The notes below the pieces were generated by a model. It was not told the origin of the DNA, did no database searches, and was given only the letters and a program-made list of their open reading frames with translations. From a virus, in IMG/VR virus record IMGVR_UViG_3300028571_001238, positions 1 through 24,768 of that record: a DNA stretch of 24,768 bases. One strand, 5' to 3'. Positions 959 through 12,076 of this stretch are shown in pieces. The translations under genes were made by a program, and so were the position numbers. Each line of letters opens with the position of its first letter. Position 1 is the stretch's first letter.

Positions 959-3900
959 TTAACATTGAGTTGATGATAGTCCGATTACAAATCCAGATCC
1001 ATTAAGGTCCCAATTGGCTCCTTGGTGGAACACATATATTTCACTAACCACATTCTGTAATGTAAAATCTGTATACAATATACATCCAGAACTAATTGTC
1101 TGACAATTTGAATATAGTGTTTTCGGATTGATAATAGAGTCAGAACATGCGTCTGCAACACTTATATCACTCACTCCACTATTTCCAAATGTACCTGTAT
1201 TAGCGGTTGCACAAGTTTCACAATTGGTATAGGTCTCACTCGGAACACCTGTGAAATAGTTACCTCCATAATTAATTGGAGTAACCTTTGGAGATGGAAT
1301 GTAAGATGTATTGAACTGTCCAACATAATACCAACAATTTCCGTCATTATCTTTGAATACCTCATTAACCGCTATTGCGAAAGATACTGGTTGTGTTTGA
1401 ATAACTTGTTGTATCGTTCCTCTTCCTGCTCCAATACGAATACATGACTGATAAACATATAAGAAGTTAGGTGTTACACTTGGTGAAGGGGTTATAGATG
1501 GTGTCGGTGTTTGTGTTGCCGTTGGAGTTTGGGTCTGAGTTGGTGTTGGTGGAGGTGTAGTACCTATCGCAGAGGTTGTAGATGGTGTTGGAGTTTGTGT
1601 TCTGGTCACACTTGGTGTAATTCCCGCAGTTGATGTAGGAGTGTTCGTTGGTGTTGATGTCGTAGTTGGTGTTGGAGTCGGTATTGTACTACAGTATTCA
1701 CAAGAAGAATAAATTTGTACAATATTTCCAAGGTTACTATTAGATGACAAGTTATTATCATCTCGGGTATAAACCACACAACGATTAACTCCATTAACCT
1801 GTACAAACATTGTCATACCAACTATTACTGGAGTTCCGCTAAACGACAATGAATCATTAGTATAGTATTCCTCTCCTGTATCACAATCAGTCAATACCTT
1901 AACTGACACACAACTGAATGTTTGGTCTAACATTTCAAATGTCACATTACCTCCAATCGAAACGGTTCTTGTAAGTGTAACTGAAGGAGTCAACGTCATT
2001 GTTGGAGTGGTTGATGTATAACCACTAAGAGAAAAATCTATACCCAATCCAACACAAGGACTGCTAGGTGTTGGTGAAGGTGTTGGTGTAACACCTATAG
2101 AGTCAATTAAAAAATTGACATCATCACAAGCAACACTCGGAGTTGGAGTTGGAATTGGTTCCCAATCACAATCAAAGTAAGCGTTGAAATCAAAAGTAGA
2201 ACAATCAATCGGAGTTGGTGTCGGAGTTGGACATATACCTCCTTCAAAATCATTAGCAGAAATGTCAGGACATTGTGAGTTACATGGATAGGAACCTCTT
2301 AATAAACAAGTTCCTCCCAAAGAAGTACTTAAACACCAATATTGAGTTGTGTGATAAATGACCGCATAAGTTGCTCCATCACCAGAATAATATAACCTTG
2401 AGTTGTAAGTTCCAGCTACTTCATAATTTCCATTATAACCTGAGAATGAAGGTAAAGTTGTATAGAAACAGAAATCTGAGAATGTACAAGCCGACGGAGA
2501 TGCTGAAACTGTCGGAGTATTAGTTGGCGTAGGTTGTGGGGTATTGGTTGGAGTTGGTGTTGGAATACAAAATTGACAATCATCAAAATCAGGGTCACCA
2601 AAATTAGGCCCACCTGGCCCTGAGAATTCAACAAAACTATAACACTCCCCATTATAAAGATAAGCCGCCCCAACAAATGCAGTATCTTCATTAACGTTAG
2701 CATAAAATACACTACCATTAGAACACTTATATAATAATGCCGCTGTTATATTTGTTCTCGGACACAGAGAATCTGCACAATTTGGAACTTGTGTAAATGT
2801 AACCCCTATGGAGTCATATATAGTACCCGTGGTAAATCCACTTACAATTGTGGCACATCCTTCGAATTCCGAACTACCAGTAATGTAATACGTATTCCCG
2901 ATTGTAACAGGTATACTCGGTCCTCCGAATCTAAATATGTTAGATCCATTTGTACAATCTTGGAACTGTACAATTACACTATTCGTCGCACTCGGAGTTT
3001 GAGTCTGTGTTGGAGTTTGTGTTGAAGTATTTGTAGGAGTTTGTGTTTGTGTTGAAGTATTTGTAGGAGTTTGTGTTTGGGTTGGAGTATTTGTTGGAGT
3101 TTGTGTTTGGGTTGGAGTATTTGTAGGAGTATTTGTAGGAGTACTTGTGTTTGTCGCTGTTTGCGTTGGTGTCTCTGTAGGTGTTTGTGTTGGAGTTTCA
3201 GTAGGAGTATTGGTCGCCGTTTGTGTTGGAGTCTCTGTAGGTGTAGTAGTATTAGTCACCGTCTGTGTCGGTGTCTCTGTAGGTGTTTGTGTTGGAGTTT
3301 CAGTAGGAGTATTGGTCGCCGTTTGTGTTGGAGTCTCTGTAGGTGTAGTAGTATTAGTCACCGTCTGTGTCGGTGTCTCTGTAGGCGTACTGGTTGGAGT
3401 TTCAGTATTCGTTGGAGTAGGAGTAGGAGTTAGTCCTTCAATACATCCTCCACAGAAACTTTCATCCACTTGGATAATAGTTAACCCCGTAGTCGCGGTA
3501 ACACTGCCAAGTATAGCACAGAAATATCCAGTACCCCCAGGAAATGGTACGTTATTTATTGATTGGGAAACGTGGTTACAATCTAAATAACTGATAGTAT
3601 TAACACCACTAGGCTCACCATCATTTGTATATTGATAACAAACACATCCATCACCTGGAGGTGTTGTGGATGGTGTAGCAGTAATTGTAGGCGTAGGGGT
3701 CGGAGTTTCATTAATAGTAGGTGTATTCGATGGTGTTTGATTTGGGGTTGGAGTTTCTGTTGGAGTCTGTGTTGGTGTTGAAGTATTTGTTGGTGTTGGA
3801 GTTGGAGTTATCACCGCACAACATTCACTAATACTTCCCGTTACAGGTATTACATCAGCATAGTCAAATATTGGACTTGCGACCTCACCACAAGTAGGTG

Positions 3901-4450
3901 GTGCTACACACTGTATATCACTTGTAGCAATAAGTACATTACCAACGGTTCCACCAGATATAAATGTAGTTCCTGTTGAACTATCACTATAATGTGCTAT
4001 TATATTAATATCAAATGGAGCTGGTATTGTACTTCCACTACAACCATCTAAGAACTCTATAAACGTATCTGTTGTACTTGCGAAATAACCAGGACAATCA
4101 AAACATTCACCAGGAGTACCTTGTACCGATGTTATTGTATAACAATATGAGGAACAAGGCTGACACCCTCCAGCAAAACTATCGTTTTGATATGCAATCG
4201 GGGCTACAAGTGGTCGGATAAACTCCCTAATTTGTCCACCTGACGCAAGATAAAATTCTTGCCCCACAGCAATTTGAGACTCAAATGGTGTAATATCACA
4301 AGACAACAATTCATCAAGGTCACAAAAGGCAGGATTGGGATTTCCAGGGTCTCCATTGAAGTCTAAGTTATATGATGTCGCGGTGCATGTTAGTGCCTTT
4401 AGGTATAGATCCGTTCCTCCACTATAAAAATTTACCGATATTATTCCCAT
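959..4450 (-). CDS. Large modular Cys-rich / Thr-Pro-linker (mucin-like) protein
   Basis: A 1163-residue protein of alternating modules. Cys-rich segments (residues 1-213, 266-340, 490-629, 652-740, 832-922 and 995-1163) are separated by Thr-Pro linkers at about 214-265, 341-489, 630-651, 741-830 (broken up by short Cys segments) and 923-994. Several Cys modules end in a CxxC pair (residues 117-120, 333-336, 625-628, 917-920, 1077-1080). The 149-residue linker contains Thr at nearly every second position and is encoded by short tandem DNA repeats. The last 65 residues resemble the C-terminal domain of the 215-residue protein downstream. There is no signal peptide, so export in the usual sense is not supported; a phage fibre, whisker or other surface protein fits better. 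It is first in its minus-strand group and starts with ATG beside a divergent intergenic region. Base composition is visibly less AT-rich than the genes around it because of the linker codons. Confidence 0.85.
3021..3130. repeat. 30-bp tandem repeat in linker coding sequence, about 3.7 copies
   Basis: Units start at 3021, 3051, 3081 and 3111. Units differ from one another by only a few substitutions. The period equals ten codons of the [10 protein letters not shown] type, so copy-number changes keep the reading frame and only alter linker length. Confidence 0.85.
3168..3385. repeat. 102-bp tandem duplication in linker coding sequence, about 2.1 copies
   Basis: The segment 3168-3269 is repeated without visible differences as 3270-3371, and the identity continues to about 3385. 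The period is 34 codons, in frame, within the 149-residue Thr-Pro linker. Identity at silent as well as coding positions points to a recent duplication. Confidence 0.85.
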
Positions 4451-6651: not shown

Positions 6652-7224
6652 TTATATTAGTTGTTTACTCACCTTAAATTGTCTTAATTTATTTTTTGTA
6701 TTTAAAATATCATAATCTAATTTAATTTCTTTGTTTTTTAAACCACCACTATAATATACAGATTCATAAGTATCTAACGGTATATTAAAATTATTAGATA
6801 ATTTTTTTAAATACGTATTTTCCAAAATAAGTTGATTCATTATAGGATTAATATCAGTATCTAACTTATATACATATTTTACATTATCCGAACTACCGTT
6901 GTAAATATTAGATAATGATTCGGCGTGTTCCTTTGTATTTTCTCTACCTAACAAAATAACATTCTCGAATTTTGGAATTAAGTCACAATAAAACTCATAA
7001 CATTTATCAAAGTAAGATTGTGGAAGATTTCCTAATATTACTGATATATTATCTATTTGATGAAACATCGTTTTTACAACAACATTTTCATGTTTATAAT
7101 TTTTCCATTGCGCACCCCAAGGGGAATATGGTTCATATATTATTTTTAAATTATAACTATTAGATATCGATTTTTGTAAAGATGTAGAACCACATCTAGG
7201 ACTAGATATAATTAAGAAATTCAT
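6652..7224 (-). CDS. Sulfotransferase-like protein
   Basis: A 190-residue protein that begins almost directly with SSPRCGSTSL (residues 7-16), the loop that in sulfotransferases grips the 5'-phosphosulfate of PAPS. A second conserved element, an Arg at about 94 and a Ser at about 103 in a LLGREN-to-ESLSN stretch, matches the 3'-phosphate-binding site of the family. It is shorter than most sulfotransferases (about 250-300 residues), so the acceptor-binding part is reduced. The expected reaction is transfer of sulfate to a sugar or tyrosine-like hydroxyl; the acceptor is not predictable. It starts at ATG 7224, a few bases after the SGNH gene upstream. Confidence 0.7.
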   Translation of the reverse strand: MNFLIISSPRCGSTSLQKSISNSYNLKIIYEPYSPWGAQWKNYKHENVVVKTMFHQIDNISVILGNLPQSYFDKCYEFYCDLIPKFENVILLGRENTKEHAESLSNIYNGSSDNVKYVYKLDTDINPIMNQLILENTYLKKLSNNFNIPLDTYESVYYSGGLKNKEIKLDYDILNTKNKLRQFKVSKQLI

Positions 7225-9084: not shown

Positions 9085-9522
9085 TTATATGATTTTTTTT
9101 AAATCAAAACGGTCATTTCTTCCATAGTTACTCAATAATTCTTCACCACATTTAATAACTCTAATCGATTTACCTGTATCTTTATCTATATTTGATTTAT
9201 TTTGGGGTAATCCACTATTCACAAATAAATAAGGATTTGTATATATCCAATGAAATCCATTAATTAATCTTACATATAGATTAGTATCATTTGGAAATTC
9301 CGTTGAATATTGAAATAAATCTAGTATATGAACTTGCAAGTCATATTCTAAAGTATTTATCTCATTTTGTGAAATAGGGTAAACTCCACTCTCACCTTCC
9401 CATACTTTAAAAATAAAGGTATTGGATGGTATTTCTTTAATTGCAAACACACCTACGCCTGCGATTCTACTTGGTTTTAATTTAACAAAAACATGATTCT
9501 TAATGTAACCAAATGCATCCAT
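9085..9522 (-). CDS. SET-domain protein (putative protein-lysine methyltransferase)
   Basis: A 145-residue protein that is little more than a SET domain. The N-terminal motif GVGVF (residues 22-26) corresponds to the SAM-binding G-x-G of SET proteins. FVNSGLPQN (about 100-108) sits where NHSCxPN normally is, and GEELLSNYG (126-134) is the closing motif with its conserved tyrosine. There are no pre- or post-SET cysteines, as usual for small viral and bacterial SET proteins. The His of the NHS motif is replaced, which may affect SAM binding. The target is unknown: a phage structural protein or a host protein are both possible. Its ATG overlaps the upstream stop by one base (TAATG). Confidence 0.75.
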   Translation of the reverse strand: MDAFGYIKNHVFVKLKPSRIAGVGVFAIKEIPSNTFIFKVWEGESGVYPISQNEINTLEYDLQVHILDLFQYSTEFPNDTNLYVRLINGFHWIYTNPYLFVNSGLPQNKSNIDKDTGKSIRVIKCGEELLSNYGRNDRFDLKKII

Positions 9523-9760: not shown

Positions 9761-12016
9761 TTATTGAAAATAATCTTGTCGTTTAAAAGTTTTATTTAAT
9801 AATTCATTATCCCCTAATCCAGAAACCACAAAATCCTCTACTATAAAGTTATGATGACTTTCAAATAAAAGATTACCATCTATTTCTAAATTGTAAAAAT
9901 TACCTACATATTGCATATCTAATTCAACCCCACTAGCCTCACAGATTGGTTTCCACACTCCATTATCATAAAATGGGTGTAATCTATCGGAAATCATTTT
10001 TTTATATTTTACAACTTCAACAACAGAATTTATAGGATGTATTAATTTATCAGTTACAATACCTTTAACATATTCGCCATCTTTATAACTTAAAACAAAA
10101 TCGCCTATTTCCACATCTTCAATATTTTTTTTACTACCATCTTCCATGGTTACTTCAGTATCGGATGTGAAACACACCGGAGCTCTGTTATGTGAAAGCA
10201 CATCATTAGCGTAATAATTGTGATACGTTTCAATTTCAGATAAGTTATATACGGTATATTCACCTTCTAAAATTTTAGTATTTATAAGAACATCTGTTTT
10301 ATTATATAATTTTATTATATCACCAATTTCAATTTTTTTGACAGGTTCTTCCAAACTATACAAAGTGTTTGATAAGGAATCTGAATAAGATGACCATCCT
10401 TTTTCCATAACGTATATTGGGTGGTCTATTGTGGCAATTAACTCTTTTCCGCTTTCAAATTCATATTTAACAACTTTACTTACTTTTCTTGAAAAGATAT
10501 TAATCACATTTGATGATTTAGTTTTATTATTTTTAAAATCAAAAGATAAAACTTTATCACCAACTTTAACATTTTCAATATTCAAGTACGCACCATCTTC
10601 CATTAATATTGGAGTACCCTCCACAAAACAAGGTGAGTTACTTGTAACCAAACTATTGAATGCTGTAGCACCATTTATTATATATGTGTCAGTATCTTCA
10701 ACATCAAGTTCTACAAAGGATAATCCATTTTCAGATGAAACATAAAAATTAATTTCATCTACTTTTACTAAATCTCCACTCAAGTCATAAAGATAATCAG
10801 TTTCTGGATTTACTTGTATACTTATTTTGAAACTAGTTTTATCAGTTAAACTATCATAAATTAAAAGCCCTTTATCAATTCCTGCAAATAAGGAATCACC
10901 ATCTATCACCACTTCAAGCATTGAATTATATCTTAAATTTTTACTATCTTTAAAAACTACAACTGAAGTAGTGATATATGAACCCTCGGGAAATTGACCC
11001 CCATCATAATTAGCCGTTAATGTATTTAAATCAGATTCATATTGTAATGGACTACTGATGTAATACGATTTTACGTTTTCACCCACTTGGATATCAGACA
11101 CTTTTTTCCAAGTATCATCTCCCATTAAAACTTCGTGCGATAATAAAATACCAGCAGAATCACTTTTAAACATATTTGTTACAAATTCGTAAAAATGATA
11201 ATCAGCTACCTTATTGGTTTCGGGATTTAAATCTATTGAAGATGGTAATTCAAGTATTGAGCTCTTTTTAAAACTTGCTAATTCAATAAAATTTAAATTA
11301 GAACCATATACAATTCCTACAAATCTAAAAGAAGTAATGTGATTATTAGTATCTACATTTGATGAATGAAAATGATATTGTTCAATCAGTTTATCTTCTC
11401 CTGAATTTTGAATTAAAAATTCATTCCAATTTTCTTCAATAGTACCATTTTCAGTATTTATTTTGAAGAAATCAATTGGATTATAAGATTCATCAATATC
11501 TTTAATTGTTGCGTCTGGTATGTTAGAAGGATTTGTTTCACGAGTTAATGTATCAAACTCCCCAATGGATGATGAATGATAGTACGCAACACAATAATCA
11601 GTTATAGAATTATTAGTAAATAAATTATATACATTCAATCTATTTTTACAATATTCACTGTCAAATAAAGCAGATTCATCATATGCCATTCTTAATATGA
11701 ACTTATTATCACTATCTTGAATAGTAGTAGGATATATTGTATTTGTATTTTCATCATGTAAATTTATACTTGTTATAAATTCACAATTTTCAGTTATATA
11801 ATCTGTTATTCGTGTAACTATTCTTAGATGGATTGTGGGTTTATAAATAATATCAAGTTCAACTATATTATTAGTTTGTAAAACATTTACAAACTCTATT
11901 AAATTCAAATTAGATAGCTCATTTTCTAAAATACCAGTATCTGTATTCAATTCCAATAATCTCAAATCACCATTTGAGTCTTTTACAAAGTCAGCCGAGA
12001 ATAAAGTTCCTTTCAT
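9761..12016 (-). CDS. Hint-domain (intein-like) protein with two clear and one degenerate Hint modules
   Basis: A 751-residue protein. Residues 1-285 have no firm assignment, although GDLRLLELNTDTG (16-28) and FILRMAYDESA (106-116) faintly recall ATP-grasp motifs. Residues about 290-460 resemble a Hint domain that has lost its catalytic ends: a WKKVSDIQVGENV segment at 303-315 and a DTDTYIING segment at 441-449. A clear Hint domain runs from Cys463 (CFVEGTPILMEDG) through His532-Pro533 to His609-Asn610. A second clear one starts at Cys615 (CFTSDTEVTMEDG) with His680-Pro681 and ends near 734 without a terminal His-Asn. The residue after Asn610 is Arg, not Cys, Ser or Thr, so classical intein splicing is unlikely; autocleavage as in bacterial intein-like proteins is more plausible. 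It stands between two short gaps, so it may be its own transcription unit. Confidence 0.85.
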   Translation of the reverse strand: MKGTLFSADFVKDSNGDLRLLELNTDTGILENELSNLNLIEFVNVLQTNNIVELDIIYKPTIHLRIVTRITDYITENCEFITSINLHDENTNTIYPTTIQDSDNKFILRMAYDESALFDSEYCKNRLNVYNLFTNNSITDYCVAYYHSSSIGEFDTLTRETNPSNIPDATIKDIDESYNPIDFFKINTENGTIEENWNEFLIQNSGEDKLIEQYHFHSSNVDTNNHITSFRFVGIVYGSNLNFIELASFKKSSILELPSSIDLNPETNKVADYHFYEFVTNMFKSDSAGILLSHEVLMGDDTWKKVSDIQVGENVKSYYISSPLQYESDLNTLTANYDGGQFPEGSYITTSVVVFKDSKNLRYNSMLEVVIDGDSLFAGIDKGLLIYDSLTDKTSFKISIQVNPETDYLYDLSGDLVKVDEINFYVSSENGLSFVELDVEDTDTYIINGATAFNSLVTSNSPCFVEGTPILMEDGAYLNIENVKVGDKVLSFDFKNNKTKSSNVINIFSRKVSKVVKYEFESGKELIATIDHPIYVMEKGWSSYSDSLSNTLYSLEEPVKKIEIGDIIKLYNKTDVLINTKILEGEYTVYNLSEIETYHNYYANDVLSHNRAPVCFTSDTEVTMEDGSKKNIEDVEIGDFVLSYKDGEYVKGIVTDKLIHPINSVVEVVKYKKMISDRLHPFYDNGVWKPICEASGVELDMQYVGNFYNLEIDGNLLFESHHNFIVEDFVVSGLGDNELLNKTFKRQDYFQ

Positions 12017-12076
12017 AATGTGTTTCTTTATATATTAAATATCTTGTTAGGTTTCAATTTGATAATTTTTATTATT

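Follow-up and report, generated by a model that had tools for sequence, protein, structure and literature searches.

Tandem BIL-like Hint domains behind an ATP-grasp-like domain in proteins of uncultivated large T4-like phages

Why would a phage protein carry intein-like domains in tandem when ordinary splicing seems unavailable to them? The question is raised by one open reading frame in a 24.8-kb virus fragment (24,768 nucleotides, hereafter the window): positions 9761..12016 on the minus strand, which also carries all parts of the gene given below, encode a 751-aa protein whose frame was verified and which belongs to a family of 52 proteins. The sequence-only reading of this locus described two clear intein-like domains separated by four residues. 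This observation is confirmed and forms part of a larger picture: Cys463, Asn610, and Cys615 lie where they had been placed in the translated frame, and both domains (residues 463-610 and 615 to the end) match Hint/intein families far over cut-offs. Pfam, profile-profile, and AlphaFold/Foldseek evidence combined identify three Hint domains in this protein, each with the fold and conserved blocks of the superfamily, behind an N-terminal domain that resembles an ATP-grasp ligase.

The middle Hint domain (residues 463-610; 10187..10630) is intact and BIL-like by Pfam, fold, and family census. It matches Intein_splicing (1.2e-14), Hint (7.5e-15), and TIGR01445 (2.5e-10), and solved BIL domains and inteins are among the structures matched by an AlphaFold model of the whole protein. 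Cys1 (C463), TxxH (TIDH), and HN (H609-N610) are all present and are followed by a non-nucleophilic +1 residue (R611), as in BIL domains, which have no nucleophile at that position and for the most part cleave (PMC7664689). The solved domains nearest to the phage Hint profile are CthBIL (4.8e-20) and Tetrahymena BIL2 (3.7e-19). CthBIL (PDB 2lwy), the best sequence-profile match, shares the Hint fold, Cys1, TxxH, HN, and the absence of a +1 nucleophile; unlike it, the phage Hints stand two to three in a row with one permanently degenerate, are fused to a ligase-like domain, and have Lys or Arg at +1. The best fold match, BIL2 of Tetrahymena BUBL1 (PDB 6tmm, 6y75), also lies within a polyprotein, but between two ubiquitin-like domains, whereas in the phage proteins Hint follows Hint at a distance of 1-11 residues.

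A four-residue linker (RAPV, residues 611-614; 10175..10186) joins the two intact-Cys Hints, and the last module (residues 615-751; 9764..10174) is of a different kind. Its best stretches are 615-648 for Hom_end_hint and 614-737 for Vint, and it matches Tetrahymena BIL2 at 1e-6. As the sequence-only reading had noted, this domain has no His-Asn; the HN-less form proves to be a conserved variant, found in seven proteins, all of which retain Cys1 and the block-B His (C615 and His680 in the window), have no C-terminal Asn, and show SGLGD in the place of HN (SGLGDNELLN at the tail of the window protein). Beyond the domain the chain has only some 20 residues left. Retention of Cys1 and block-B His without HN recalls the Hedgehog Hog domain (1at0), but the phage Hint profile matches it weakly (0.0012), an acidic residue stands for the Thr of TxxH in the phage module, and no sterol-recognition region was seen.

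Sequence comparisons indicate that this HN-less module has moved between phage lineages in the manner of a cassette, exchanged at the module boundary. The last module of the window protein is 81% identical to that of relative L025 while their cores share 38%; with L005 the cores are 65% identical and the last module is of an unrelated type (33%). L030 and L011 repeat the first pattern (core 39%, last module 82%), and in the L015/L025 pair similarity begins at Cys1, the module boundary. A grouping fully supported by the cassette tree is rejected by the core tree (AU p = 2e-6). Such exchange supplies natural variants for comparison.

The stretch between the N-terminal domain and the first intact Hint (residues 283-460; 10637..11170) had been suggested, as residues 290-460, to be a third Hint that has lost Cys and His-Asn. 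Its Hint identity and the loss of Cys stand; of the pair, the His is gone in the window protein, but Asn460 (10637..10639) is kept. Family database scans gave no Hint family as the best stretch for residues 283-460, and the assignment comes from profile-profile comparison and predicted structure: the family alignment matches the intact modules at E = 8.5e-8, and the degenerate-Hint profile finds Tetrahymena BIL2 among PDB chains at 2e-6 in both halves. When residues 1-462 were modeled without any of the intact Hints (AlphaFold; pLDDT 80, pTM 0.71), the model matched BIL2 at 4.6e-8 and CthBIL 2lwy with a TM of 0.87 on the target in Foldseek.

The degenerate Hint is recognizable in 48 of the 52 family proteins, and its decay is one-sided. 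Gly, Ala, Ser, or Val, never Cys, occupies the Cys1 position in these relatives, TxxH is lost, and the block-B His is absent in all 48; the block-F Asp is kept in 47/48, the final Asn in 48/48, and the His before it in 45/48, the window protein being one of the three exceptions. Since the Asn is kept, only the N-terminal half of the chemistry is clearly gone, and the residue needed for the C-terminal half-reaction has been retained. A Hint with the Asn half alone offers a ready test of whether evolution can separate the two half-reactions. In three relatives HN of the degenerate Hint runs directly into Cys1 of the next (HN|C; L025:5337-5345, L031:7491-7499, L073:7366-7374), like an intein C-terminal junction. 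A class 2 intein, which this junction brought to mind, is ruled out by the loss of the block-B His in all 48.

The first 282 residues (11171..12016), which the sequence-only reading had left undivided within the N-terminal part to be released or attached, resemble an ATP-grasp amide ligase of the glutathionylspermidine-synthase/YgiC type, akin to enzymes that couple amines to peptides, more than a passive cargo. The domain is present in all 52 family proteins. The best non-Hint Foldseek match of the 1-462 model is YgiC (7uk8; prob 0.99, E 2e-3, moderate TM), accompanied by glutathione-synthetase-like proteins and GSS-like effectors. An Mg motif, D-x12-E-x-N, is invariant in 30/30 relatives at YgiC spacing: predicted ligands are Asp9 (11990..11992; YgiC D102, TryS D330) and Glu22-x-Asn24 (11945..11953; YgiC E115/N117, TryS E344/N346), and the trypanothione synthetase equivalents bind two Mg ions (PMC3581523). 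Alignment to YgiC by hhalign is local (21 columns; E 1.5e-3, probability 17%), with a score of 32 versus at most 21 among 30 column shuffles. Residues 1-282 gave no Pfam match at the gathering cut-off, the family N-domains gave a single weak GSP_synth match (0.053), and their profile drew chance matches alone from PDB sequences. Unlike E. coli YgiC/YjfC and glutathionylspermidine synthase (PF03738), the phage domain has little sequence ahead of the Mg motif and is phage-only; moreover, the Arg two residues before the Mg-binding Asp, which contacts the gamma-phosphate in GspS/YgiC, is Ser7 in every relative, which makes ligase activity uncertain.

IMG/VR was scanned repeatedly, with 32 loci, 44 loci, and others returned; these resolve to the 52 distinct proteins, all found solely in uncultivated large T4-like water phages (a gp23-bearing group); T4-like gp23 was present on 7/17 contigs tested, as was a tail-sheath domain (7/17). 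No relative appeared in isolate phage records (tblastn with N-terminal parts), and none that was cellular or bacterial among 84,980 species genomes scanned. Likewise, neither the papers searched nor the isolate phage records showed tandem, putatively self-cleaving Hints fused to an ATP-grasp-like ligase, a combination carried here by many large T4-like phages with active sites kept. Behind the core stand no intact modules in three records (one incomplete), one in 13, two in 30, and three in six. Modules are about 135-168 aa long, share about 30% identity, gave no match to a homing endonuclease domain, and, in the proteins tabulated, are joined by linkers of 1-11 residues. Nevertheless, at this level of divergence Cys1 is kept in 91/91 intact modules, and TxxH and HN in 84/84 and 81/84 ordinary ones, respectively. 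The residue after HN (n = 81) is Lys in 45 modules and Arg in 25 (70/81 together), Ser in one, and Cys or Thr in none; 28 of the proteins terminate exactly at HNK-stop. Pro precedes Cys1 of the first intact module in 27/49, including Cys463 of the window protein.

One relative departs from this plan: L267:2076-5345 is extended at the N-terminus, has Ser in place of Cys1 in its degenerate Hint, and carries a third Hint ending HN-S, beyond which it continues into a C-terminal repeat domain. The gene upstream of it is C39-peptidase-like.

The regions upstream of these genes share a motif that resembles a late promoter. TATTTAT occurs in 40/49 family upstream regions (shuffle mean 2.7, maximum 9 in 1000), mostly with its 5' end 20-43 nt ahead of the ATG, and TA[TC]TTA[TA] fits 48/49. 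The window's own motif is the form TATTTAA, 25 nt upstream of the ATG (12035..12041, minus strand). TATTTAT also precedes the tail sheath gene, a gene that we take, by its presumed kinship with T4 gp19, to encode the tail tube, and other structural genes of these phages (L112-L119). The T4 late-promoter consensus TATAAATA is found upstream of 0/52 family genes and is not enriched; TATTTAT is the reverse complement of TATAAATA except for the last base. We take TATTTAT to be the probable late promoter of these phages, standing where T4 would have TATAAATA.

The domain identities, the conservation and loss of catalytic residues, the module exchange, and the promoter motif are shown here. On balance, and with modest confidence, we think it probable that BIL-type autoprocessing frees the ligase-like core, or transfers it, late in infection. 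The constant core (residues 1-460) would comprise the ATP-grasp-like amide ligase and a Hint whose active site survives in its C-terminal (Asn) half alone, and the replaceable BIL-type cassettes on it would cut themselves at Cys1 (through a thioester) and/or at Asn. After synthesis the cassettes would autoprocess and either release the core or pass its C-terminus as a thioester to an amine; the route would be hydrolysis or aminolysis, with no ordinary splicing. The middle Hint of the window protein may be capable of both steps and the last of the Cys step alone, like Hedgehog Hog domains. Pro before Cys1 disfavors the N-S acyl shift in characterized inteins, and the acyl shift at Cys463 is therefore expected to be slow; cyclization of Asn460/Asn610 may precede it as the first break. 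The core itself may be an active ligase, with a phage or virion component as its substrate.

Of the chemistry proposed by the sequence-only reading, the BIL likeness is borne out by the closest sequences and folds, and N-terminal thioester chemistry is plausible since Cys1 and TxxH persist among modules about 30% identical; transfer to a sterol or glycan finds no sign. Its view that ordinary splicing is unlikely, drawn from the Arg after Asn610 and the missing His-Asn of the last domain, extends to the whole family, since no module has Cys or Thr at +1 (1 Ser/81).

The main rival is that the Hints are conjugating devices, in which a thioester on the core, or on a short basic inter-Hint linker, is moved to a Lys or other amine of a partner. 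Tetrahymena BIL2 does this with its upstream ubiquitin-like domain, which it joins to lysine by an isopeptide bond without ATP (PMC8616854), and BIL2 and CthBIL are the closest folds. Conserved Lys/Arg at +1, the 28 chains ending HNK-stop, and the restriction of the HN-less C-terminal module to the Cys step are all consistent with such a role, but the basic +1 residue could be inherited or inert, and these phages also have it in tail-region proteins that are unrelated to the family (HNKG, L117-L119). We regard conjugation as unlikely, though it could belong to the same process as autoprocessing.

Alternatively, the Hints may be structural only, as beta-rich spacer or adhesion modules in which cleavage has been lost. 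One domain has clearly decayed, Pro stands at -1, modules are swapped like fiber tips, and 3/52 proteins (one of these an incomplete record) lack an intact Hint; however, retention of Cys1 (91/91), TxxH (84/84), and HN (81/84) among sequences about 30% identical is hard to explain without chemistry, which leaves this explanation quite improbable. A reading of the modules as selfish elements, ordinary inteins that entered a phage gene, has very little to recommend it: intein profiles match and inteins are frequent in phage genes, yet the modules have no endonuclease domain, stand in tandem at the C-terminus, followed by a single Lys at most, and are fixed across lineages in 0-3 copies, and the missing +1 nucleophile and C-extein (1 Ser/81; 28 HNK-stop) rule out ordinary (class 1) inteins for the family. 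Equally remote is a pretoxin-type Hint releasing a C-terminal toxin, despite a PT-HINT match (2.9e-8): the N-terminus is an ATP-grasp-like domain, the last Hint is followed by no more than HNK-stop or some 20 tail residues, and almost every member lacks a C-terminal domain (L267 has a repeat domain there instead), which rules it out.

Returning to autoprocessing of the core, if the Hints work, the family would provide a natural tandem BIL system whose +1 residue is Lys or Arg, a tool for protein ligation, and would add a new type of protein modification late in phage infection. A bolder scheme, to which we give a low probability, is that the ATP-grasp core and Hint cassettes form a self-contained conjugation device: the Hints, with a basic +1 residue and Lys as acceptor, would form thioesters of peptides or of the core without ATP, and the ligase would extend or attach them, so that virion or host proteins are tagged or cross-linked late in infection, with the last cassette setting where the core ends up.

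Genes around the locus commonly encode modifying enzymes. A SET-domain protein is the downstream neighbor in the window (9085..9522, minus strand), and a homologue or SET domain occupies the same place in L002, L003, L012, L013, L020, L023, L259, and L279, adjoining the gene in nine examined records, window included. Other neighbors are 2OG-Fe(II) oxygenases, a radical SAM protein, GDSL hydrolases, a carbamoyltransferase, and nucleotide-sugar enzymes, and elsewhere in the relatives' surroundings there are a tryptophan halogenase and a C39-like peptidase. The window further encodes (6652-7224, minus strand) a protein starting MNFLIISSPRCGSTS with no Pfam match at 0.01 and, by eye, a sulfotransferase-like P-loop motif, and (959-4450, minus strand) a 1163-aa protein with long TPTPTNTPT repeats, Cys-rich blocks, and an upstream late-promoter motif, probably a fiber-like virion protein.

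Hint domains also occur in proteins of other architecture that these phages encode close to their tail region or past it (L117:1545-2861, L118:2242-3966, L119:2509-4233, L116:292-2802). These proteins carry HN-KG or HN-AKG, and those of L118 and L119 have, by eye, a LamG-like C-terminal part. Finally, Pfam AXH (the ataxin-1/HBP1 domain) matches residues 464-568 of the window protein (10313-10627) at 1.1e-15 and L267:3501-3950 at 8.8e-25. A literature search for AXH and Hint together returned no paper with both terms; the phage Hint profile matches ataxin-1 structures at 1.7e-10, better than many inteins, which suggests that AXH may be a truncated relative of Hint.
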